Assembly: GCF_026625605.1 (NCBI RefSeq)
Contig: NZ_CP113054.1
Span: 4,774,001-4,838,000 of the forward strand
DNA from: Luteolibacter sp. SL250
Lineage (GTDB): Bacteria > Verrucomicrobiota > Verrucomicrobiia > Verrucomicrobiales > Akkermansiaceae
Direction: 5' to 3'
DNA: 64,000 nucleotides
Position numbers and translations under genes: made by a program
Shown: piece after piece, positions 20,666 to 45,858 of the stretch
How the letters are laid out: every line of letters begins with the position of its first letter
Numbering within the stretch: position 1 is the first letter of the stretch
Notes under the pieces: generated by a model
Seen by the model: only the letters and a program-made list of their open reading frames with translations
The model's database searches: none
Told to the model about the DNA's origin: nothing

Positions 20666-22192
20666 ATGTCCCGCTCCCGTGCATTTCCATCACCAATGTG
20701 CGCCTGGCTCACCGCCATGGCGCTCTTTTCCTCCATGGTGGCTGCGGAGGAGGCACCGCCGACCTTTCAGGCAAAAGCCAAGGCCCACCTTGAGTTGGTG
20801 CTGAAGGAAGGCACGGACCACTACGGCGCGACGTCCACCCCGCTGTGGATGTCCAGCATCGACACCCGGACAGGACGCTACCCGGAGGATGACACCCGGC
20901 ATCCCGACTATCCCTCCCGGGTCTATCGCCTGATCGCCGCGCCGAAGGGCTCGAATCCCTATTGGGATCTGCCGCAGATGGCAGCAGCCGCGGATCTTTC
21001 CAAAAGGACCGGAGATCCATCCTACCGGAAGGGGGCTGATGACAGCCTGGACTTCATTTTCTCCCACCTGATCGACGGGCCGAGCGGCCTCATCCTGTGG
21101 GGGAACCACTATTACTATCACGCCTACCAGGACGAGATCCTGTTCTTTCTGGATGAGAAGAACGTCACCCCCTACGGGAAAAACCCGGCCGGGAACGAAG
21201 GCAAATACCACGAGGCCCGGCCGGTGCCGATCCCGTGGGACCTGCTGTGGGAACGGAGTCCGGAAAAGACGGAGCGCTACATCCGCGCGATGCTCGACCG
21301 CCATCTCACCGACGCCACCACCGGTGAGTTCAACCGCCACGCCACGCCGAAGGGCCAGCAGCATGCGTTCATCGAGTCCGGCGGACTGCTCGTCCACGCG
21401 GCGGCATTCCTGTTCAGCAAGACGAAGGACCCTACCCTGCTGGAGCGGGCGGACCTTTTCATCCGCTACACCTTGGCAGCGGAGAACCCGGCCACGGGGC
21501 TGGTCAGCAACTGCCCCAACTCCCCGGTGAAGAGGTGGGACCGCTCGATCAGCACCACGGAGATCGGACTGTGGGCGGGATCGCTCATCGCCGCCTCCGC
21601 CCATGTTCCGGCCGGGACGCGGGATGCCTGGCTGGCACACGCCGACCGCGTGACCTCCGCGTGGCTGAAACACGCCTGGAGCGAAAAGGACCGGAAATTC
21701 CATGGCAACCTCCGCATCACCGACGGCACTCCCGTCACCGAGCGGACCACCACTTATCAGCCGGGGGCTTTCAGCAGCCTGTGGGAGCCGCAGTTCCCGA
21801 ACCACGACTACCCGATGGCGATGGCAGAGACCTGCCTGCGGCTCCACAAGATCACCGGAAAGGAAACCTACCGCACCGCCTGCCAGCGGTGGATCACCGT
21901 GATCCGGGAATCCCTCCCGGCCAGGGACGGGAAAGGCGGCTATGCGGAGCACTACGGCCGCGTGATCCACTTCCTGCTGGGCTGCCACCGTGACCTGAAG
22001 GATCCGGCGTGCCTCGATCTGGCAAAGCAGGTGGCCGCCGAGGCGGACCGCTTCCTGTGGGCGGGTAAGGCGTTCCGCAGCCATCCGGTCGAGAACCGCT
22101 GCGACAGTGTGGACGGGATGGGCTACCTGCTGCTCGCGCTCGGCTGGCTGGAGTCCGGCAAGGAACCGGACTACCACGGGTTTTTCTTCTGA
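20666..22192 (+). CDS. Secreted (alpha/alpha)-barrel protein, possible polysaccharide lyase or glycoside hydrolase
   Basis: The 508-residue product has a signal peptide (residues about 1-27, ending MVAAEE). Repeated helical blocks with conserved aromatic and His residues (WGNHYYYHAYQDEILFF, HAFIESGGLLVHAAAFLF, EIGLWAGSLIAASAH, YPMAMAETCLRLHKITG, RCDSVDGMGYLLLALGWLE) suggest an (alpha/alpha)6-7 toroid, the fold of several polysaccharide lyases and six-hairpin glycosidases. I cannot assign a CAZy family, so the activity stays open. The gene lies 62 bases after fabH and ends 18 bases before a perfect hairpin. Start chosen at the first ATG with a usable signal sequence. Confidence 0.65.
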   Translation: MSRSRAFPSPMCAWLTAMALFSSMVAAEEAPPTFQAKAKAHLELVLKEGTDHYGATSTPLWMSSIDTRTGRYPEDDTRHPDYPSRVYRLIAAPKGSNPYWDLPQMAAAADLSKRTGDPSYRKGADDSLDFIFSHLIDGPSGLILWGNHYYYHAYQDEILFFLDEKNVTPYGKNPAGNEGKYHEARPVPIPWDLLWERSPEKTERYIRAMLDRHLTDATTGEFNRHATPKGQQHAFIESGGLLVHAAAFLFSKTKDPTLLERADLFIRYTLAAENPATGLVSNCPNSPVKRWDRSISTTEIGLWAGSLIAASAHVPAGTRDAWLAHADRVTSAWLKHAWSEKDRKFHGNLRITDGTPVTERTTTYQPGAFSSLWEPQFPNHDYPMAMAETCLRLHKITGKETYRTACQRWITVIRESLPARDGKGGYAEHYGRVIHFLLGCHRDLKDPACLDLAKQVAAEADRFLWAGKAFRSHPVENRCDSVDGMGYLLLALGWLESGKEPDYHGFFF

Positions 22193-22210
22193 CGGCCTGT
22201 TAGAAGAACC

Positions 22211-22237
22211 GTGGCTGCTGCGGGACGCAGCAGCCAC
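22211..22237 (+). terminator. Perfect 12-bp GC hairpin after secreted barrel gene
   Basis: GTGGCTGCTGCG (22211-22222) pairs perfectly with CGCAGCAGCCAC (22226-22237) around loop GGA, 18 bases after the stop codon. ACATTT follows, not a true T-run, so termination would be inefficient or factor-assisted. Confidence 0.55.
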
Positions 22238-22284
22238 ATTTACGGTCATGGACCACGTCTCCGATTTCCCCTAGACTGACGGCC

Positions 22285-24126
22285 ATGGCGCACCGCAGCA
22301 CCCCGCTGGAAACCGACAAGATGCCGCCGGGCATCCCCTACATCATCGGCAACGAGGCGGCCGAACGGTTTTCCTTTTACGGGATGCGGACCATCCTGGT
22401 CGTGTTCATGACGCAGTACCTGCAGTTCATGGACAACACGGGCGGCACCTCCATCTCCGGCACGGAGGCCGTCGGTTACTTCCACCAGTTCGCGGGATGG
22501 GTGTATTTCACCCCGTTGATCGGCGCGCTGCTCTCCGACATCTTCCTCGGGAAATACCGCACCATCCTTTTCCTCTCCCTGTTCTACTGCCTGGGCCACG
22601 GCGCGCTGGCGTGCATGGGGCTGGTGGGGGAGTCGAAGTGGTGGCTCATCACCGGGCTGTCGCTCATCTGCATCGGCGCGGGCGGCATCAAGCCGTGCGT
22701 CTCCGCCCACGTGGGCGACCAGTTCGGCAAGCTGAACCAGCACCTGATCACGCGCATCTACAACTGGTTCTACTTTTCCATCAACTTCGGCGCGATCTTT
22801 TCCACGTTGCTCACCCCGTGGCTGCTGGAGCACTACGGGCCGCACTGGGCGTTCGGCGTGCCTGGTGTGCTGATGGCCATCGCCACGTTCATGTTCTGGC
22901 TGGGGCGGCACCGCTTCGTCCACATCCCTGCGTCCGGCTGGGGCTTCTTCCGCGAGGCGTTTTCCTGGGAGGGTTTCGCCGCGTTGGCGAAGCTCATCCC
23001 GCTGTTCGTGTTCATCGCCGTCTTCTGGTCGCTCTATGACCAGACCGGCTCCTCATGGGTGCTGCAGGCGAAGCAGATGGACCTGAACTTCCTCGGCGTC
23101 ACCTGGCTGGAGTCCCAGATCCAGGCGGTGAACCCCATCCTGATCCTCATTTTCATCCCGCTGTTCACGCTGGTGCTCTATCCGGCGATCAACCGGGTCT
23201 TCCGGCTCACGCCGCTGCGGAAAATCGGCATCGGCCTGTCGCTGCTGGTGGCGACCTATGTGCTCACCACCGTGGTGCAGTCGTGGATCGACGCAGGCCA
23301 GCGGCCCTCCATCGGCTGGCAGATGCTTTCCTTCATCCTCATCACCGCGGCGGAGGTGATGGTGGCCATCGTCGGGCTGGAGTTCGCCTACACCCAGGCA
23401 CCCCGCGCGATGAAGTCCTGGGTGATGTCGCTTTTCTGGCTCGCAGTGTGGCTGGGCAACTATTTCACCGCAGAGGTGAACCGTTTCATCTCCACGCCAT
23501 CCGCCGCGCGACTCCAGTTCACGGAGGCGATCTCCCGCCTCCCGGAGGACTGGAAGACGTCCCCCCGGAACATCGTGCTGCCGGGATACGACGGCATCAC
23601 CGGCACCGCGGACGACTTCATCGCCCGCTGCCGCCAGGGCCGGCTGGACTCCTTTGAGATCCCCGGCCGCGACCTTTACTTCTCCGCCGCGGAGAGGATC
23701 GAGCAGGCTTCCGCGGAGAAATTCCCCGCCAAGGAGCAAGGCAACCTCCTTCTGCAGGGGATCAAGGATCCGTGGGGGAATGCCATGAGATACGAGGTGA
23801 TCGACTCCTCGCACATCCGCATCTCCAGCAAGGGACCGGGGGAGAAGGAAAAGTCCGAGTGGAGCCTTGGCCTGGTCATCGGGAAAACGGAAGGCGAAGC
23901 CGTGGCTCCGAAGGACACCTGGCTGGCCCGCCGGAAGATGGAACTCGGCATCCGGGAAAAGGCCACACCGGGTGGATTCGAGCGGACGGAGTTCTCCGGC
24001 GGGGAGAGCAAGCTGGAGGGCGCGGCCTACTTCCGCTTCTTCACCTGGCTGATCCTGGGCGCGCTGGCCGTCTATCTGCCATTCTCACTGATCTACCGCC
24101 CGAAGACGTACCTGCATGAGTCGTAA
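22285..24126 (+). CDS. POT/PTR2-family proton-peptide symporter with large insert before TM12
   Basis: The 613-residue product has the POT signatures NEAAERFSFYGMR (residues about 21-33) and RIYNWFYFSINFGAIFSTL (TM5), and twelve membrane helices by inspection. POT proteins import di- and tripeptides with protons across the inner membrane. TM11 (from about residue 376, MKSWVMSLFWLAVWLGN) and TM12 (from about residue 583, RFFTWLILGALAVYL) are separated by about 175 hydrophilic residues. That loop contains GYDGITGTADDF (about residue 432) and DPWGN (about residue 495), motifs otherwise typical of GspG pseudopilins. By topology it would be periplasmic. The stop codon TAA is part of a palindromic repeat. 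Confidence 0.88.
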   Translation: MAHRSTPLETDKMPPGIPYIIGNEAAERFSFYGMRTILVVFMTQYLQFMDNTGGTSISGTEAVGYFHQFAGWVYFTPLIGALLSDIFLGKYRTILFLSLFYCLGHGALACMGLVGESKWWLITGLSLICIGAGGIKPCVSAHVGDQFGKLNQHLITRIYNWFYFSINFGAIFSTLLTPWLLEHYGPHWAFGVPGVLMAIATFMFWLGRHRFVHIPASGWGFFREAFSWEGFAALAKLIPLFVFIAVFWSLYDQTGSSWVLQAKQMDLNFLGVTWLESQIQAVNPILILIFIPLFTLVLYPAINRVFRLTPLRKIGIGLSLLVATYVLTTVVQSWIDAGQRPSIGWQMLSFILITAAEVMVAIVGLEFAYTQAPRAMKSWVMSLFWLAVWLGNYFTAEVNRFISTPSAARLQFTEAISRLPEDWKTSPRNIVLPGYDGITGTADDFIARCRQGRLDSFEIPGRDLYFSAAERIEQASAEKFPAKEQGNLLLQGIKDPWGNAMRYEVIDSSHIRISSKGPGEKEKSEWSLGLVIGKTEGEAVAPKDTWLARRKMELGIREKATPGGFERTEFSGGESKLEGAAYFRFFTWLILGALAVYLPFSLIYRPKTYLHES

Positions 24127-24168
24127 GGAGGGTGGACATAGCGGCTCTGCCGCAATGTCCATCCTCCT
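24124..24168. repeat. REP-like palindromic element, intact copy
   Basis: Bases 24126-24145 and 24149-24168 form a 20-bp hairpin with one mismatch and one G-U pair around loop TCT. The left end TAAGGAGGG begins with the stop codon of the transporter gene. The right end finishes two bases before the stop codon of the convergent aminopeptidase gene. A 36-base section recurs inverted at 27797-27832 (33 of 36 identical by eye), and the left half recurs at 45526-45546. Confidence 0.75.
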
Positions 24169-24170
24169 CA

Positions 24171-25271
24171 CTACCCATTCAGCTTCGCGAGCTGCTTCGG
24201 CAGGAAGACGCCGTCCTTGCGGATGAGCTTGCCGTCGAACCAGACCTCGCCGCCGCCGTAGTCCTTGCGCTGGATGTTCACCATGTCCCAGTGGACCTGG
24301 GAGCGGTTGCCGTTGTCGGCGATCTCGTACGCCTGACCGGGCGTGAAGTGGAAGGAACCGGCGATCTTCTCGTCAAAGAGGATGTCCCTCATCGGCTCGC
24401 GGATGACCGGGTGGAAGCCTAGGGCGAACTCACCGATGAAGCGGGCACCTTCGTCGCTGTCGAGGATCTTGTTCAGTGCCTTGGTCTTCGCACCGGCCTC
24501 GGCCTTGACGATCTTGCCCTTGGAGAACTCCAGGCGGATGGTGTCGAAGCCGATGCCCTGGTAGATGGTCGGGGCGTTGTAGGTGATGTGGCCTTCCACG
24601 GAGTCACGCACGGGGGCGGTGAACACCTCGCCGTCCGGGATGTTGAAGTTCCCGCCGCAGATGACGGCAGGGATGCCCTTGATCGAGAAACGCAGGTCGG
24701 TGCCCGGCCCCTTGAGGTGGACCTGGTCGGTTGACTCCATGAGCTTTTTCAGCGCGTTCATCGCCGGGACGAGCGCCTTGTAGTCGAGCAGGCAGACTTT
24801 GAAGTAGAAGTCCTCGAACGCCTCCGTGCTCATGTTCGCCTGCTGCGCCATGGACGGGCTGGGCCAGCGGAGCACGCACCAGCGGGTCTTTTTCACGCGG
24901 TGGTCCAGCACCGGGCGCATGTGCTTCATCGCGAGCTGCATCTTGTCCGCGGGAACGTCGGAGGTTTCCGCGATGTTGTAGCCGCCACGCACGGCGATGT
25001 AGGCGTCCATGTCCTTCATCTCCGCCAGCAGGTGCTTCGCGATGACGGAATACTGGCCGTCCTCCGCGCCCTTCAGCATCTCCCGGCTGAGACGGGACTG
25101 GTGGATGCGGATGAATGGCAGCGCGCCCTTTGCCCTGGCCTCGCGGATCAACGCCAGCCCGATGGAGTCCGGCACGTCGTAGAGATCGATGAGGACTTTC
25201 TCGCCTTTTTTCAGGGCGGTGGAGTAGCGGACCAACTGCTTTGCGAGGGCGTCAATGCGGGCGTCGTGCAT
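24171..25271 (-). CDS. M29-family metallo-aminopeptidase
   Basis: The start is ATG 25269-25271 ([32 protein letters not shown]), matching the usual N-terminus of AmpS/AmpT/PepS-type enzymes; the extra open frame upstream lies in the divergent promoter region. The 366-residue product carries the metal-binding C-terminal blocks of family M29: [13 protein letters not shown] (Glu), [17 protein letters not shown] (Glu and His) and [11 protein letters not shown] (His-x-Asp). The N-terminal half has [16 protein letters not shown], also typical. It should release N-terminal residues from peptides in the cytoplasm, which suits its position facing a peptide importer. It ends at the palindromic repeat. 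Confidence 0.9.
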
Positions 25272-25368
25272 GCCATGGACGTTAGATGTCCCGCCGCCGT
25301 TGTCCACGCGGCAATATGGGGAAAAACAATAAACTTGGCATCCCTCCCCCACCCCCTACACCAAGCGC

Positions 25369-25947
25369 ATGGTCCTCGGCATCCTCGGTTCCGGCTCCGG
25401 CTCAAACATGCAGGCGATCCTCGATGCGATCGCGGCGGGCACGCTCGACGCCCGCATCGCTCTGGTCCTGTCGGACAACCCGGACGCGTACATCCTTGAA
25501 CGTGCGGCCAAAAACGGCATTCCGTCCGGCGTGATCGACTGCCGGGGGTTCAAAACGAAGTTCCCTGAAGAGGCACAGGCGGAGACCGCCGCCCGGCTGA
25601 AGGATGCCGGGGTGGAGCTGGTCTGCCTGGCTGGCTTCATGCGGCTGGTGAAGCGTCCGCTGCTGGACGCCTTTCCGGAGCGCATCCTCAACATCCACCC
25701 GTCCCTCCTTCCGGCCTTCCCCGGCATCGCTGCGTGGAAGCAGGCAGTGGACGCCGGAGTTTCCGAAACGGGTTGCACCGTCCACCATGTGGATGATGGT
25801 ATGGATACCGGCCCGGTCATCCTCCAGGAAAAGATCCCCGTCCTCCCGGATGACACCGACAAGACGCTCCACGCCCGTATCCAGTTGGTAGAGCACCGGC
25901 TTTATCCGGAAGCGATCCGCCGCCTGGCGCAGACCGCATTGCGGTGA
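25369..25947 (+). CDS. purN: Phosphoribosylglycinamide formyltransferase
   Basis: The 192-residue product starts MVLGILGSGSGSNMQAIL, a normal PurN N-terminus with the phosphate-binding G-S-G-S-N. The catalytic residues are Asn108 and His110 (LNIHPSLLPAFPG) and the Asp of HHVDDGMDTGPVI. It transfers a formyl group from 10-formyltetrahydrofolate to GAR in purine synthesis. No other pur gene is adjacent. The PBP gene starts 16 bases downstream on the same strand, so the two may be cotranscribed. It is divergent from the aminopeptidase gene. Confidence 0.95.
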   Translation: MVLGILGSGSGSNMQAILDAIAAGTLDARIALVLSDNPDAYILERAAKNGIPSGVIDCRGFKTKFPEEAQAETAARLKDAGVELVCLAGFMRLVKRPLLDAFPERILNIHPSLLPAFPGIAAWKQAVDAGVSETGCTVHHVDDGMDTGPVILQEKIPVLPDDTDKTLHARIQLVEHRLYPEAIRRLAQTALR

Positions 25948-25963
25948 GAGTTGTTCCCTGAAG

Positions 25964-27676
25964 ATGTCCACCTGGCGTCCCATCTCCCGACCCTCCTGGT
26001 GGCAGCGCCTGTTGCCAGAGTGGCTGCACGCACCCGTGCGGTGGCTGTTCTGGCTAGGGGTGGCCGGGCTGGTGGCGTTCGGCGGTTTCGTCTTTTTCTA
26101 CTTCATCCTCGCGATGAAGTTCGACCTGAAGGAAGTCGCCGGGTTGCCGGAGGCGAACCACTTCTACGACAAAAACGGCATCGAGATCGACGCACCGATC
26201 AGCGGCGGACAGAAGCTTGCCAAGCGGGAGGACATCCCGGACTTCCTGGTGAAGGCGCTGCAGGCGCGGGAGGATGCACGGTTTTTCGAACACGTGGGCG
26301 TGGACTTCCGCGGGCTGGCACGTGCGACGGTCCGCAATCTGAAGGACGGGGACTTCACCCAGGGGGCGTCCACACTCTCGATGCAGCTCGCCCGGAACAC
26401 GTATGAGATCCGCGCGAAGTCGATGCACCGGAAGTTCCTGGAAATCGCCCTCACGCTCCGCATCGAGGCCCGCTATTCGAAGGACGAGATCCTGACCCAC
26501 TACCTGAACCGGATCTACTTCGGCTCCGGGGCGCAGGGCATCGAGCAGGCCGCGCTGACTTACTTCGGCAAGCCGGTCCGCGAGCTGGATGAAAACCAGT
26601 GCGCGATGGTCGTGGGCATCATCCGCGGCCCACATGTCTTCTCCCCGCTGAGAAACCCGAAGGGGGCGCTGGAACAACGGGACCAGACGCTCAACCGGAT
26701 GGTGGCCATGGGCTTCATCACCGATGAGAAGCGGGACAAGCTGGAAGCAACCCCGATCAAGCTGGCCAGCGAAAACGAGGACCGTGCCCAGCGTTCCTAC
26801 GCCTTCCAGGCGATCCGCCGGGAGCTGGAGAAGATCCTCGAAACCCACGACATCCGCTCCGACGGTCTCTACGTCCACACCACCCTCGACCTGGGGTGGC
26901 AGCAGCGGCTGGAGATCGAACTTTCCAAGGCCGTCGCGGACCTGGAGAACGAGAAAGGCTGGCGCTATGGCACCTACTCCGACCACACCCCGGGGGCGGA
27001 GCCGAAATACATCCAGTACGCCGCCATCACCACGGAGACGAAAAGCGGCGGCATCCTCGCGCTGATCGGGGGACGGGATTTCGCCCACTCCCGCTTTGAC
27101 CGGACGCGCTCCCGGCGTGACCTGGGGTCGGCGTTCGAGCCGTTCATCGCCGCAGCCGCCGCGGAACGCGGCAAGCTGGTCCTACCGGGCAAGCCGGTGC
27201 TGACCGGGCGCCAGATCGGCCCGGCGGAGGTCGAGCGGCTGGCGAAGCGGTGCGGCCTTTCCGGCCCGTTCCTGGACACGGAAGATCTTTTCCGCGGCTC
27301 CGTCGCCGCCACCCCGCTGGAAATGTCCATCGGCCTCTCCACCCTCGGGAACGCTGGAAAACGGCCGGATCCGTTCGTGATCCGGGAGATCCGGGATTCC
27401 TCGAAGAAGGTCATCTACAAGGCCCAGCCACGGCTTACTCCCGCACTCAGCAGCCAGGCGGCTTCGGAAGCGACCACGGTGCTGGCAAACCACGCCGGCA
27501 CCCGGACCTTCACCGGTGCCACTGGTTCCGAAAGGGATGCCTGGACCCTCCGCCTCGGCCCGAAAGGTTCCACCGCCATCTGGATCGGCTTCGACCAGCC
27601 CGCGGCAATCGCCCGGGACGCACGGGTGAAATCGCTGCTGGATGAATTCGTCCGGCGGCTGGGGAACAGTGAATGA
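25964..27676 (+). CDS. Class A penicillin-binding protein with intact GT51 but degenerate transpeptidase domain
   Basis: The 570-residue product has a cytoplasmic tail, one membrane anchor (about residues 30-50) and a GT51 transglycosylase domain with catalytic Glu103 (QAREDARFFEH), QGASTLSMQLARN and YLNRIYFGSGAQGIEQAAL. It should polymerise lipid II into glycan strands. The C-terminal penicillin-binding fold is recognisable but altered. The usual SxxK is GSAFEPF (Ser389, Glu392 in place of Lys), and the usual K-T-G-T/S is F-T-G-A-T (516-520). A Ser without the general-base Lys should not acylate, so I infer a glycosyltransferase-only enzyme. Length is short for PBP1. It follows purN closely. 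Confidence 0.85.
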   Translation: MSTWRPISRPSWWQRLLPEWLHAPVRWLFWLGVAGLVAFGGFVFFYFILAMKFDLKEVAGLPEANHFYDKNGIEIDAPISGGQKLAKREDIPDFLVKALQAREDARFFEHVGVDFRGLARATVRNLKDGDFTQGASTLSMQLARNTYEIRAKSMHRKFLEIALTLRIEARYSKDEILTHYLNRIYFGSGAQGIEQAALTYFGKPVRELDENQCAMVVGIIRGPHVFSPLRNPKGALEQRDQTLNRMVAMGFITDEKRDKLEATPIKLASENEDRAQRSYAFQAIRRELEKILETHDIRSDGLYVHTTLDLGWQQRLEIELSKAVADLENEKGWRYGTYSDHTPGAEPKYIQYAAITTETKSGGILALIGGRDFAHSRFDRTRSRRDLGSAFEPFIAAAAAERGKLVLPGKPVLTGRQIGPAEVERLAKRCGLSGPFLDTEDLFRGSVAATPLEMSIGLSTLGNAGKRPDPFVIREIRDSSKKVIYKAQPRLTPALSSQAASEATTVLANHAGTRTFTGATGSERDAWTLRLGPKGSTAIWIGFDQPAAIARDARVKSLLDEFVRRLGNSE

Positions 27677-27875
27677 TGTAAGGAGGGGAAAGTTTCAGTA
27701 TTCAGTTTTCAGGGCAGAAAAGATGAAGCCGAAGATGGAATGCAGCAATGGCTCCGTGTTCCCATTGCAGCCGGGGGACAGGAATGGGAGCGAAGCGGAC
27801 ATTGCAGCAGAGCCGCCATGTCTACCCTCCTTTCTCCTTGAAACGCGGTGGCCGATGGGGCAGGTTTCCCACCCC
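27677..27875. repeat. Intergenic region with REP-like element, inverted copy
   Basis: After the PBP stop codon the sequence has GTAAGGAGG (27678-27686) and a hairpin GCAATGG (27745-27751)/CCATTGC (27762-27768) whose loop carries CTCCGTGTTC. An inverted copy of the palindromic element follows at 27795-27832 (GGACATTGC ... CCCTCCTT). GGCTCCGTGTTCC (27750-27762) recurs exactly at 45499-45511, also beside an element copy. I see no gene in this stretch. Confidence 0.65.
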
Positions 27876-28310
27876 ATGCAGGCCGTTCAGTTCGAACAAT
27901 CCGTCGCCGCCATCCTGAAGCGGGACCGCCGTTTCGATCCGGGCGCCTACTTTTTCCTGAAGGACGCGCTGGATTTCACGCTGAAGCGGATCAGTGACGG
28001 AAACGGCGGCCAGTGCCGCCACGTTTCGGGACCGGAGCTGCTGAATGGCTTCCGGGATCATGCGCTCCAGCAATACGGCCCGATGTCCGCCACCCTGATG
28101 AACGAGTGGGGCCTGCGGAAGTGCCAGGATGTCGGGGACATGGTGTTCCACCTCATCGAGGAGCAGGTGTTCGGAAAACAGGATTCCGACCGCCGGGAGG
28201 ACTTTTCGGAAGTTTTCGACTTTCAGGAGGCGCTGACGCTTCCATTCCTGCCCAAGAAGCGCCGCCAGACGCCGCGCAGGCAGGCCCACGCCCAGCGGGC
28301 GGTGGGCTGA
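27876..28310 (+). CDS. Minf_1886-type protein
   Basis: I start at ATG 27876 (MQAVQFEQSVAAILKRDRRFDPGAYFFLKDAL); the frame is open further upstream but runs through the repeat region. The 144-residue product matches, from memory of the family, the Minf_1886 proteins of Verrucomicrobiota and relatives. The matching features are an N-terminal D-x-R-F-D-P-x-A-Y-x-F-L-x-x-A-L block, then HVSGPELLNGFRDHALQQYGP, then GLRKCQDVGDMVFHLIE and REDFSEVFDFQEAL. No enzymatic motif is visible and the function is unknown. The C-terminus is basic (KKRRQTPRRQ). It converges on the next gene with a gap of 15 bases. Confidence 0.85.
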   Translation: MQAVQFEQSVAAILKRDRRFDPGAYFFLKDALDFTLKRISDGNGGQCRHVSGPELLNGFRDHALQQYGPMSATLMNEWGLRKCQDVGDMVFHLIEEQVFGKQDSDRREDFSEVFDFQEALTLPFLPKKRRQTPRRQAHAQRAVG

Positions 28311-28325
28311 CCACCACTCCCCACC

Positions 28326-29279
28326 TCAGGTCGGTAGTGCCGGTGGTGTCGGGGTGTTGGCCACCGGCGGCTTCACCCATTTCGGGGCCTTTGGTGAGAC
28401 GTCCAGCCTCAAGGACACCAGCGCCATCCCCAGCAACCCGACAAACCCGCCGAAACTCCAGGTGATGGTCGTCACCATGCCAATGGCGAACGGCATGCAA
28501 ACCAGCAGCGCGATCACCATCCCGCTCGGCTTCACTTCATAGGCCAGGACCACCAGCCGCAGGCGGGAGCGGGCCAACGCCAGTCCTGTCGAGACGTAGC
28601 AGATGACAGCCGAAAAGGCGGTCAGATGGTAGAAGATCCCGCAGCCTTTCGTCACGGTCGCGGAAAACGCCAGCGGGATGCCGCAACCGGCGAGCATCGA
28701 AATCAGGAACAGCAGGAGCATCGCGACCCGCCCGGCGATCGTCTTGAACGCCGATGCGCCGATGACCCCCGCGCAGACCAGCGCGGAACCGCCGACCACC
28801 GTGGTGGAACAGGCCAGTTCATACCACCACTCCACCTCACCAAGGGCATAGCGGACCACCACGAATGGCAGGAGAGAGACAAAGGTGAGGGTGCAAAGAC
28901 CCCACAGGGTGAGGAATTTCCCGAGGACGATCTTCCACCGGCCCAGCTTGGTCAGCAGGAGCAATTCATGGTTCCCCTCCTCCAGTTCCTGCCCCATCAG
29001 GATGATCCCGCCCAACGGCATCACCACCACGCAGACAGCGCCCACGATGGCCCAGAACGGCCCGGACTCCACCAGCAGCATGACGTTGAGCATACCGACC
29101 CCGTCATCGATCCTGTACACCTCTCCGCGCTGGAACTCGAAAACGGTGGCGAGGATGGCGAGGAGCTGGATCAGCAGGAAAGGAAACACGAAGCTCCCCC
29201 GCCGCATGTTCTGCCGCAGTTCCTTCGTCGTCATCGGCCCGAGCAACTCGGGCAGGTCGTTTTTCCAAACCGTCTGCAA
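28326..29279 (-). CDS. ABC-2-type permease-like membrane protein
   Basis: The 317-residue product has an amphipathic N-terminus ending in GPMTTKELRQNMRRGS and then about six to eight membrane segments. This 'T-K-E-L-R' entry followed by a long first helix (FVFPFLLIQLLAILATVF) is typical of ABC-2 permeases in Verrucomicrobiota and Planctomycetota, as is MGQELEEGNHELLLLTKLGRWKIVLGKFL. No ATP-binding subunit is encoded beside it, so a partner must lie elsewhere, or it acts alone. The tail is proline-rich and cytoplasmic. It follows the ThuA gene on the same strand after a perfect hairpin. Confidence 0.65.
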   Translation of the reverse strand: MQTVWKNDLPELLGPMTTKELRQNMRRGSFVFPFLLIQLLAILATVFEFQRGEVYRIDDGVGMLNVMLLVESGPFWAIVGAVCVVVMPLGGIILMGQELEEGNHELLLLTKLGRWKIVLGKFLTLWGLCTLTFVSLLPFVVVRYALGEVEWWYELACSTTVVGGSALVCAGVIGASAFKTIAGRVAMLLLFLISMLAGCGIPLAFSATVTKGCGIFYHLTAFSAVICYVSTGLALARSRLRLVVLAYEVKPSGMVIALLVCMPFAIGMVTTITWSFGGFVGLLGMALVSLRLDVSPKAPKWVKPPVANTPTPPALPT

Positions 29280-29302
29280 TCCGGATTGAAACTAGATGCA
29301 AA

Positions 29303-29333
29303 TCCGGCGGATCGCCGAGAGCAATCCGCCGGA
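29303..29333 (-). terminator. Perfect 10-bp hairpin between ThuA gene and permease gene
   Basis: TCCGGCGGAT (29303-29312) and ATCCGCCGGA (29324-29333) are perfect complements around an 11-base loop. On the minus strand it follows the ThuA stop codon by about 40 bases and is followed by TTTGCATC, so it may attenuate read-through into the permease gene. Confidence 0.5.
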
Positions 29334-29370
29334 GCAGGTTGAAATTTTCAGGACCCGTCCCGGGGGCGGA

Positions 29371-30309
29371 TCATTTCTTGTCGAGATTCGCAGTCATCTC
29401 CTCATCGGTGGGTGTCTTGTTCGGCACACCGCCATCCGGCACGGGCAGTCCGGCGATCCAGGCAATGGAGTTCAGGACGACCTTCCGCTGGTCATCCTGC
29501 GCCCAGTTCTTGTGGAAATGGCCGCCGGTGAAGCCGAACGCCCTGCCACCCCCCAGCGCCGCCGGGCGTTCATAGGCCCACATCACATGCTGGGGCTCCT
29601 TGCGCTCCAGCACCGAGGCGCGGACATGCGGATTGCCGGAGTGGGTGCCGTCCGGACGGCTGAGAGTCTCCGCGGACGGAAGATCGGAGAGGATCGGGGT
29701 AACGCCCTCCATGTTCTTGCGGAACCGCATGTGGTAGTACCACTCGTCACGGATACCGAAATCCTTCACACCCTTGGTGACCTCATGGGTGGCGATCTTG
29801 AACTTCGCATCCCAGTGCGGGTTCACCGACCAATCGGTTTCGAAATAGCCACCGAGAACATCGAGGAACGTGTTGCCACCGTCACCCTTCGGCACTTCCA
29901 CCGCATAGTGGATGCAGCCGACGCCCACGCCGGCCTCCGCCATTTTCCGCAGGTCGGCGAGCTGTTGCATGGCAGGGTGCCTGCCGCCACCGTCCGCGTA
30001 GATCACCACCGCCGCGGCGCCGTCGAAGACGGACTTGTCCGCCGGCCAGCCGTCCGTGACCACCACGGCCTCCACCGGCAGGCCGCTCTTGTTGATCTGG
30101 TCCGCCAGCAGCATGCAGCCGGCGCGGTGCTCATGCTCGCCCGGCTTGTGGCTGGGCTTGCCCGCCACGAAGACGATCTTTTTCTTGGCCGCGGGCTTGT
30201 CCTGCGCCACCGCACGCTCCCCTCCGGTCATCATGAAGAGGATCAGCGCCGTCACGGCGCAGGCGAAGGTCACGAGGAGTGAACTGGAGACTCGGAAAGG
30301 TCGGTTCAT
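29371..30309 (-). CDS. Secreted ThuA-domain protein
   Basis: The 312-residue product has a signal peptide (residues about 10-36, ending RAVAQ) and a ThuA fold, a class I glutamine-amidotransferase-like Rossmann domain. The visible blocks are KIVFVAGKPSHKPGEHEH, DGAAAVVIYADGGGRHP, GVGVGCIHYAVEVP and RAFGFTGGHFHKNWAQDD. The nucleophile position typical of amidotransferases is occupied by Cys in GVGCIHYAVE, as in many ThuA proteins. ThuA proteins are implicated in sugar use and are abundant, often secreted, in Verrucomicrobiota and Planctomycetota. The catalytic role is not established. The gene has its own 5' region after a pilin gene's terminator. Confidence 0.85.
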   Translation of the reverse strand: MNRPFRVSSSLLVTFACAVTALILFMMTGGERAVAQDKPAAKKKIVFVAGKPSHKPGEHEHRAGCMLLADQINKSGLPVEAVVVTDGWPADKSVFDGAAAVVIYADGGGRHPAMQQLADLRKMAEAGVGVGCIHYAVEVPKGDGGNTFLDVLGGYFETDWSVNPHWDAKFKIATHEVTKGVKDFGIRDEWYYHMRFRKNMEGVTPILSDLPSAETLSRPDGTHSGNPHVRASVLERKEPQHVMWAYERPAALGGGRAFGFTGGHFHKNWAQDDQRKVVLNSIAWIAGLPVPDGGVPNKTPTDEEMTANLDKK

Positions 30310-44595: not shown

Positions 44596-45474
44596 ATGAC
44601 GCCCACACGCTATTTCCTCTCACGCATCGCCCACACGCTGGGCATCCACCGGCGCAACCAGCGCATGAGCGATGCCGCGAGTGAGACCCATCTGCTGCGT
44701 GATGCGGAGGCTTACCTTGGAGCGATGGTCTGGAGGAAGGTGGAGGACATCGAATCCCTTTCCTCCAGCTACTGGAACCTGCGGAAGCTTTCCCAGGAGC
44801 AGGAAGCGATCTCCACCGGGATCGCCTCCTGCCAGGAGAAGCTGAACAAGGCCCATGAAGACCGTGCCGCGTTGCTCAACACCGTCTCCGAACCCGAGCA
44901 AAAGCTCCTCACGGAGAAGGCAGGGATCGTGGCGGAACTCGGCACGCTTTCCACCAGACGGGACGAGATCGTGGCTGCCGCCAAGGAGATCCGGAAGTCC
45001 TACGAAGGCCTGAAGGTGAAGTCCGAAGTGCTGGCCAACCAGACCGGCGACACCAAACCGGCCGCCGCCGAGATCGACAAGCTCAACACCTCCCTCAGCC
45101 AACTGAAGGAACGTTTCACCTCATTGAAAGAGGAGCGGACACGGATCAGCGAGGACATCATCAAGGGAGACCAGAGAATCAACGAGCTGGCTGAGAAGAT
45201 CCAATCCTTCAGGAAATCCCAGCATGACAACGCCTCGAAGGCGATCCAGTCCATCGGTGACGCGAACAAGGACATTTCCTCTCTGCGGGCGGAGTATGGC
45301 ATCCTGGACACCAGGATGTCCCAGCTCCACGCGGAGATCGGCAAACACGTGAGCCGCAATGCATACGGTGACCCGGCCTGTGCGGAAGCGGTGAAGGATC
45401 ACCGGGGGCTCGTTGATGTGATGCAGGCATTGAGGAAATCCATCACCCTCAACTATCGCCTGGCGGATATGTAA
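44596..45474 (+). CDS. Cytoplasmic coiled-coil protein of unknown function
   Basis: The 292-residue product is almost entirely helical. Residues about 60-250 are rich in Glu, Lys, Gln and Ser with heptad spacing (IASCQEKLNKAHEDRAALLNTV, LSQLKERFTSLKEERTRISEDI). No signal peptide or membrane helix is visible. The short conserved C-terminus (YGDPACAEAVKDHRGLVDVMQALRKSI) looks like a distinct module. I do not recognise the family. A second possible start is the ATG at 44668 (MSDAASETHLL). It follows acs by 16 bases, and its TAA stop is the first triplet of a TAAGGAG repeat motif. Confidence 0.65.
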   Translation: MTPTRYFLSRIAHTLGIHRRNQRMSDAASETHLLRDAEAYLGAMVWRKVEDIESLSSSYWNLRKLSQEQEAISTGIASCQEKLNKAHEDRAALLNTVSEPEQKLLTEKAGIVAELGTLSTRRDEIVAAAKEIRKSYEGLKVKSEVLANQTGDTKPAAAEIDKLNTSLSQLKERFTSLKEERTRISEDIIKGDQRINELAEKIQSFRKSQHDNASKAIQSIGDANKDISSLRAEYGILDTRMSQLHAEIGKHVSRNAYGDPACAEAVKDHRGLVDVMQALRKSITLNYRLADM

Positions 45475-45546
45475 GGAGCGGAGGGATGATGCGTGATCGG
45501 CTCCGTGTTCCGCTTCAAGCCGTGGTAAGGAGGGCGGACATTGCGG
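45472..45546. repeat. REP-like element, partial copy between convergent genes
   Basis: TAAGGAG occurs at 45472-45478, where TAA is the stop codon of the coiled-coil gene. GGCTCCGTGTTCC (45499-45511) exactly repeats 27750-27762. TAAGGAGGGCGGACATTGCGG (45526-45546) repeats the left half of the intact palindrome at 24124-24144 with two changes. The right half of the palindrome is missing; the next three bases are the stop codon of the convergent EF-hand gene. Confidence 0.65.
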
Positions 45547-45858
45547 TCAATGGGTGTGATCGGCACGCTGCTCGGCCTCATCAAGGCGCTTGAAGCCACG
45601 CTGCGCCTCACGCAGGGAGATGGTCCGGCTCTTGTCCCGGTCATAGAAATCAATAATCTCCGAAGGAGGATGGCCGGTGGATTTCTGGGCAGCCACCAGT
45701 TCGCCGGAATCCAGCTCACCGTCACCATTCAAGTCATACCGGTCGAACTTCTCCAGCAGACCGATCATCTGCTTCTCAACCTTGGTTTCAGGAACGATGG
45801 GCCCTGGTCCGGAACATGCGGCAATCAGCGGGAGAACAAGGAGAGGTGCGAACTTCAT
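45547..45858 (-). CDS. EF-hand lipoprotein
   Basis: The 103-residue product starts MKFAPLLVLPLIAACSG, a lipoprotein signal with Cys15 after Ala-Ala. Two EF-hand loops are visible: DLNGDGELDSGE (residues about 42-53), complete, and DRDKSRTISLRE (about 73-84), with the usual D-x-D/N-x-S spacing. It probably binds calcium at the outer or inner membrane face. The C-terminus is acidic and His-containing. No partner is evident; it converges on the coiled-coil gene and is divergent from rlmH. Small EF-hand lipoproteins are common in this phylum. Confidence 0.8.
   Translation of the reverse strand: MKFAPLLVLPLIAACSGPGPIVPETKVEKQMIGLLEKFDRYDLNGDGELDSGELVAAQKSTGHPPSEIIDFYDRDKSRTISLREAQRGFKRLDEAEQRADHTH

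Follow-up and report, generated by a model that had tools for sequence, protein, structure and literature searches.

REPs that lie near stop codons can affect translation in E. coli, and an inverted pair of REPs that moves as one unit is known as a REPIN. A 2013 account of GTAG REPs reports that they donate stop codons to flanking genes, and that the verrucomicrobium O. terrae is rich in GTAG repeats (PMC3733652). Most REPs in the descriptions given by PMC6006769 and PMC8266576 carry GTAG or GTGG as a guide, and the former also describes atypical structures (subclass 2.6, and a class 3 with the foot CnGA) and says that REPs have been implicated in the regulation of translation. In many cases the REPs are very close to, or immediately downstream of, the stop codons of RAYT genes (PMC2817692).

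The hairpin at 24124-24170 of the window (the whole stretch of DNA analysed, 64,000 nucleotides) resembles the GTAG REPs and BIMEs as outlined in PMC3733652, where a 5′ tag precedes a palindrome, copies are numerous, dimers occur, and the repeats lie near the 3′ ends of convergent and co-directional genes with the tag giving the stop. It departs from that outline in its tag, (A)GTAAGGAG, which carries TAA and not TAG, and whose AAGGAGG is complementary to the 16S tail. As in the RAYT (TnpA-REP) systems presented in PMC2817692, PMC6006769 and PMC8266576, a Y1 transposase gene stands between oppositely oriented REPs; unlike those systems the tag is not GT[AG]G, and in several species the stop codon of the RAYT-like gene is itself within the REP tag. 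We consider it very probable that the hairpin belongs to a REP/BIME family with units made of a tip and a hairpin, with a probable cognate RAYT-like Y1 transposase gene at C1:3699981-3700580, and that the TAA of the tip has been adopted as a gene stop. What is new is a tag with TAA, which recurs although the hairpins diverge and encloses the RAYT stop, together with evidence from orthologues for takeover of a stop. In a literature search conducted mostly outside subscription sources a TAAGGAG REP tag was not found among the matches listed; those listed for TAAGGAG itself included none on REPs by title. The matches listed for REPs at inversion breakpoints, and for REPs with stop codons and trans-translation, similarly included none on point by title.

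An M29 peptidase gene (24171-25352, − strand) converges on a POT-family gene (22285-24126, + strand), and the features found here and elsewhere in the window are collected in Table 1. A preliminary description made from the letters alone had proposed a 20-bp hairpin with a TCT loop at 24126-24168. Hairpin and loop are present, and the arm comprises 20 positions of which 19 form pairs, one of them G.T. Folded as single-stranded DNA, this segment has 14 pairs, one A.A mismatch and five pairs closed by the loop, at −20.1 kcal/mol, and none of 200 shuffled sequences folds as well. The RNA fold of the hairpin with its flanks gives −38.9 (z = −9.0). The arms of the compact form are unequal (GGAGGGT and GGAGGAT), and on the M29 side the sister species (G202) has a REP with the GGAT variant; for these reasons two adjacent REPs have probably fused to give the compact form. 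One G202 locus (C3:924060-925030, L182) has an additional reading frame, which is situated between its POT and M29 genes and ends at a REP TAA.

The inverted 36-base copy noted earlier at 27797-27832 was confirmed by eye (33 of 36 identical), and is part of a longer decayed repeat. The half copy at 45526 is present as it was described, and to the copies already listed we add the truncated left end at 27679, which follows a gene encoding transglycosylase and transpeptidase domains. TAAGGAG at 45472 does overlap a real stop; it was rejected as a REP copy, having no REP sequence behind it. The half-site pattern has four matches in the window where 1.42 are expected, and 7 of 100 shuffles reach four. 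It is not striking within the window alone, but it is striking genome-wide.

Table 1. REP copies and associated stop codons in the window
Feature	Position	Strand	Context
Compact REP, two left ends head to head (TAAGGAGGGTGGACATAGCGGC TCT GCCGCAATGTCCATCCTCCTCA)	24124..24170	+	Between convergent genes
TAA, first triplet of the REP and stop of the POT-family transporter gene (22285-24126, +)	24124..24126	+	
TGA, first triplet of the opposite REP end; adjoins the TAG stop (24171-24173) of the M29 peptidase gene	24168..24170	-	
Truncated REP left end TAAGGAGGGG	27679..27688	+	2 nt past the TGA stop (27674-27676) of gene 25964-27676
Decayed long-form REP, first triplet AAA	27773..27833	-	
TAAGGAG at the stop of gene 44596-45474	45472..45478	+	Not counted as a REP
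REP left half only (TAAGGAGGGCGGACATTGCGGTC)	45526..45548	+	

Genome-wide counts were made on the genome of origin (G000; one contig, 4,916,937 bases). The half site TAAGGAGGNNGGACA occurs 190 times with up to one mismatch, compared with 16 for the reversed control pattern, and chance similarity was rejected as the source of the repeats on these numbers. The count is also far above the handful of further copies below which the preliminary description would have abandoned its REP-like reading. The longer pattern GGAGGGCGGACATTGCGG occurs 82 times with up to three mismatches, against 10 when reversed. There are 178 half sites in G202 (control 9), and the long-form pattern has any match in only three of 38 other relatives, with one or two in each. 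As in a REP/BIME family, the element is a short palindrome of high, species-specific copy number.

The 171 REP ends analysed come from 1.08 Mb of G000, which outside positions 1-400000 and the window was mostly picked because REPs were there; ends with two mismatches were kept only where REP-like context followed. They are mostly intergenic, 20 of the 171 being flagged inside a called gene, and they occur in inverted pairs with the tips outward (52 of 99 clusters have the orientation '+−' and one has '−+'). Just over half of the clusters are thus simple inverted pairs, as in REPINs; unlike REPINs, single ends and fused compact forms are frequent here. Three forms are found, namely a short hairpin (TAAGGAGGGNGGACACTCYTGTCCNCC), a longer two-part form (TAAGGAGGGNGGACATTGCGGC-loop-GCCGCTATGTCCGCTTCGCTCCCATTCYTGTCCNCC) and the compact palindrome of two left ends, the last at seven places in the examined parts of G000, the window copy among them, and two in those of G202. 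A tail such as GGCGGCATTGGCGAA often follows both the long and short forms. Complementarity between the variable stem base N and N′ is seen in 124 of 127 short copies and in all 32 long ones, and AT, TA, GC and CG all occur, in both forms alike. Nested tips such as TAAGGAGGAGTAAGGAGGG are seen at C1 2224418, 2254846, 2540709 and 3028469 of G000, and look like one REP inserted into another at its tip.

Genes were called with a purpose-made codon-usage caller. A gene stop is faced by 116 of the 171 REP ends; the remainder are 33 facing a gene start on the other strand, the 20 inside called genes and two with neither. Eleven of the 33 have one and the same overlap offset, and probably reflect miscalled starts. 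Among the 116 stop-facing ends, 96 have the stop between −60 and +12 of the tag and 79 at an offset of −12 to 0, and in 49 it is exactly the first triplet of the REP (44 TAA, four TGA, one TAG), the next commonest offset after 0 being −4 (n = 7). The supply of a stop codon that had been proposed for the POT gene is thus a general property. Frame selection can account for part of the excess at offset 0, as translation would run past a tip lying out of frame. In 464 kb of unselected sequence (positions 1-400000 plus the window) there are 28 REP ends, of which 18 face stops and seven do so exactly (eight stops if counted from the gene side), and 8 of 45 called TAA stops are REP tips.

The 99 clusters divide into 43 between convergent genes, 50 between co-directional genes and six between divergent genes, compared with 121, 339 and 114 respectively of 574 background intergenic gaps, which include the gaps holding REPs. 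The convergent excess (P = 6 × 10^-6) and the divergent deficit (P = 5 × 10^-4) give the preference for gene 3′ ends whose absence was to have counted against a REP. For the related hairpin in five other genomes, 28 entries (26 distinct places, some being RAYT stops themselves; four of 30 loci gave no entry) have a stop offset of 0 in seven and of −3 to −11 in 10, and 11 have no called stop within 40 nt.

Orthologue comparison shows that such a repeat can take over the stop of a conserved gene and trim the tail of its protein. This is shown best by a gene that we take to encode MnmG from its sequence. In G000 the protein ends ERER at a REP TAG; in G202 the site has no REP and the frame reads on. 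Among the relatives (19 loci fetched, 30 matched), 17 of the 19 extend 1-18 residues beyond the G000 end and two (L252 and L254) end at the same residue, and the REP tip is present in none. On this evidence the REP gave MnmG a new stop. A REP-supplied stop is likely for the gene at 165745, which ends GEE-TAA at the REP in G000 and GEEEP-TGA in G202, the four closest other relatives ending AMED or AME. The POT protein of G000 ends YLHES followed by the REP TAA. Its 29 relatives comprise 14 ending YLHD with TGA, four ending YLQD or YLQN (two TGA, one TAA, one TAG), seven that end one residue earlier and four that run on, and TAAGGAG is found in none. The REP probably supplied the POT stop. The TAA may be older than the REP, because L098, one of the four that run on, has YLHEG TAA one residue later without a REP; G202 has the same GAGTCGTAAG, TAA included, and then a different repeat tail. 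The Ffh end KFPF is kept in the eight loci matched (two alike) with the REP tip 0, 3, 4 or 7 nt away, and since the end is unchanged the REP there took over or joined the stop without altering the protein. These ends were sought with one tblastn query, which missed L133, whose upstream sequence resembles an Ffh end (RFKF).

The outer flank of 62 G000 ends was found in G202, with a REP there in 38 and none by pattern in 24, several of the latter sites being decayed or rearranged; 110 ends were without a counterpart in the G202 sequence examined. At the shared sites 66509, 188598 and 516319 the interior of the element has changed form between the two genomes and the tip has stayed. A two-flank search of G000 against G202 gave no clean empty REP site. 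It flagged only 167195 and its G202 counterpart, which have the same sequence and a weak pattern match, and this was taken for a coding match and not a REP.

Could the stops be native, with the transposase targeting TAAGGAG sequences that already existed at stops or ribosome sites? The retention of KFPF by Ffh at every tip distance fits with this, as does the POT TAA, being common to G202 and present in L098 without a REP. Yet there is no TAAGGAG at the G202 junctions corresponding to 165745, 367546 and 414860 (at the last a TAAG lies ~9 nt on), nor in the relatives shown for two of these genes, and only 10 of the 156 occurrences of TAAGGAGG in the sequence examined lie outside REPs, four of these at called stops. 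Insertion only at ready-made TAAGGAG sites was rejected on the G202 junctions, and we regard a native origin of the stop as unlikely.

A Pfam Y1_Tnp search of G000 gave four genes, three over the cut-off and one below. The gene at 3699981-3700580 scores 24 bits against a cut-off of 23, lies between REP ends and has a REP TAA as its stop; its neighbours are presumably ffh and miaA, from their sequences. In this it is like RAYT genes, being a Y1 transposase gene with REPs of its own genome on either side. Compared with NF047646 (REP-associated tyrosine transposase) it has E = 2.4 × 10^-15 and 56.7 bits, under the cut-off of 80, and for that reason we call it RAYT-like. Two other G000 Y1 genes pass NF047646, with 90.7 and 84.2 bits. 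Given that other Y1 genes exist in G000, it is the adjacency that makes this gene the probable partner of the REPs. Further Y1 genes (L031, L032 and L034) gave no match to the two REP patterns in their loci of ~3 kb, and may serve other repeat families. Relatives at E = 10^-20 or better are present in 81 of 195 genomes of the family, its own included; one from a contig search is not independent, as its RAYT, flanks and Ffh end are the same as those of L128. Copy number, inverted pairs, the preference for gene 3′ ends and a RAYT-like gene between copies all bear out the REP-like reading, and the search for a RAYT that it called for found this gene.

Of the 171 tags, 151 start with TAA and 159 have a G before the triplet. 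The tag is GTAAGGAG in 142, GTAG in two and GTGG in none, and this places the family outside the GTAG superfamily, where the foot of the hairpin carries GTAG or GTGG. The hairpins adjacent to RAYT genes differ across 30 loci (own, G202 and 28 others, these being best matches and not a random draw), with cores such as GGGGACACTCCTGTCCCC, GTCGACGTTCCGTCGAC and GGGCTGGTCTCCAGCCC. The RAYT stop reads TAAGGAG in 12 of the 30, TAGGGAG in three and TGAGGAG in three. Under a strict criterion for the stem, 17 of the 30 loci, own included, have a hairpin beginning no more than 9 nt from the RAYT stop, compared with none of 29 POT orthologues (P = 6 × 10^-7) and 9 of 317 other G000 stops (P = 9 × 10^-15). 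The 13 loci missed by this criterion include tagged, imperfect stems (for example L132, L137, L144 and L146) and loci without a tag at the RAYT stop (for example L145, L148 and L149).

Recognition by the transposase would explain why the tag recurs at differing hairpins beside the RAYT genes of other species. Since known REPs mostly have GTAG or GTGG, with atypical cases, and since the tag recurs here as the hairpins diverge, TARGGAG (here TAAGGAG) is best read as a transposase tag, by analogy the version in this clade of the GTAG guide. RAYT-like systems would then use more tags than GT[AG]G alone, and this clade would be one in which the evolution of tag and hairpin can be separated. One may speculate further that TARGGAG is doubly selected, for reading by the transposase and for stopping translation, making the REP a portable stop cassette, and that the RAYT could recognise or stall on the end of its own transcript and so regulate itself. 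We hold this extension to be unlikely.

The preliminary description had also suggested that the tag acts on ribosomes through its anti-Shine-Dalgarno complement. In a fuller version TAAGGAGG would pair with the 16S 3′ end and, with the hairpin, stall, recycle or restart ribosomes, and the repeats would be kept for that purpose. The 16S gene (RF00177, 1510 bits) does end GGATCACCTCCTTTCT, complementary to AAGGAGG, and the 49 exact REP ends are themselves stops. But TAAGGAGG is intact in 41 of those 49 and in 105 of the 122 others, a weak test given that nearness to the tag governed the choice of both sets, and for 33 of the 171 the feature faced was called as a gene start, even if 11 are probably miscalls. 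Since tags that serve as stops are not more often intact than the others, we do not favour a role on the ribosome, which seems to us improbable; the REP and its supply of a stop are what stand of the original interpretation. Least probable, and rejected, is a bidirectional intrinsic terminator, since, for all that the hairpin is stable, lies between convergent genes and belongs to a family enriched there, it has no T run after it and so is not the GC hairpin plus T run of such terminators, it was not listed in a terminator scan of 22000-30000, and 50 of the 99 clusters are between co-directional genes.

Returning to the REP/BIME reading, the repeats have probably been spread by the transposase of the same genome. 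The unit would be a fixed left tip, (A)GTAAGGAGG, plus a hairpin, with the tip serving as a guide tag read by the enzyme, as GTAG is in E. coli REPs. Units are often inverted pairs with tips outward, and copies near gene 3′ ends would persist. If a tip lands at the old stop or slightly ahead of it, in the reading frame of the gene, the gene adopts the TAA (or a TGA or TAG variant) as its stop, and the protein end shifts by a few residues or none (MnmG is the best case, POT and the gene at 165745 are likely ones, and Ffh keeps its end). The compact form at 24124-24170 may have arisen by joining of two left ends after loss of the middle of an inverted pair. In RNA the hairpin is probably only a generic 3′ structure.

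Comparison of C1 1-400000 of G000 with C2 of G202 (loci L035-L054, L161-L180, L192 and L193) placed five of ten synteny or inversion breaks at REPs. The overlap expected is 0.25 at random and 0.68 with breaks placed between genes, and in 20000 simulations five was reached in none and 0.04% respectively; the breaks were listed by hand, and one of >3 kb was left out before the test though it has REPs inside. One block of ~92 kb, rearranged internally, has REPs at both ends. At C1 190111, 252172, 2023758 and 3948696 of G000 (L044 and L093) the REP breaks off at the same point with a mobile element next to it. Two of these four elements were examined and have a near-identical open frame for an integrase-type transposase, which we take to be IS3-like.
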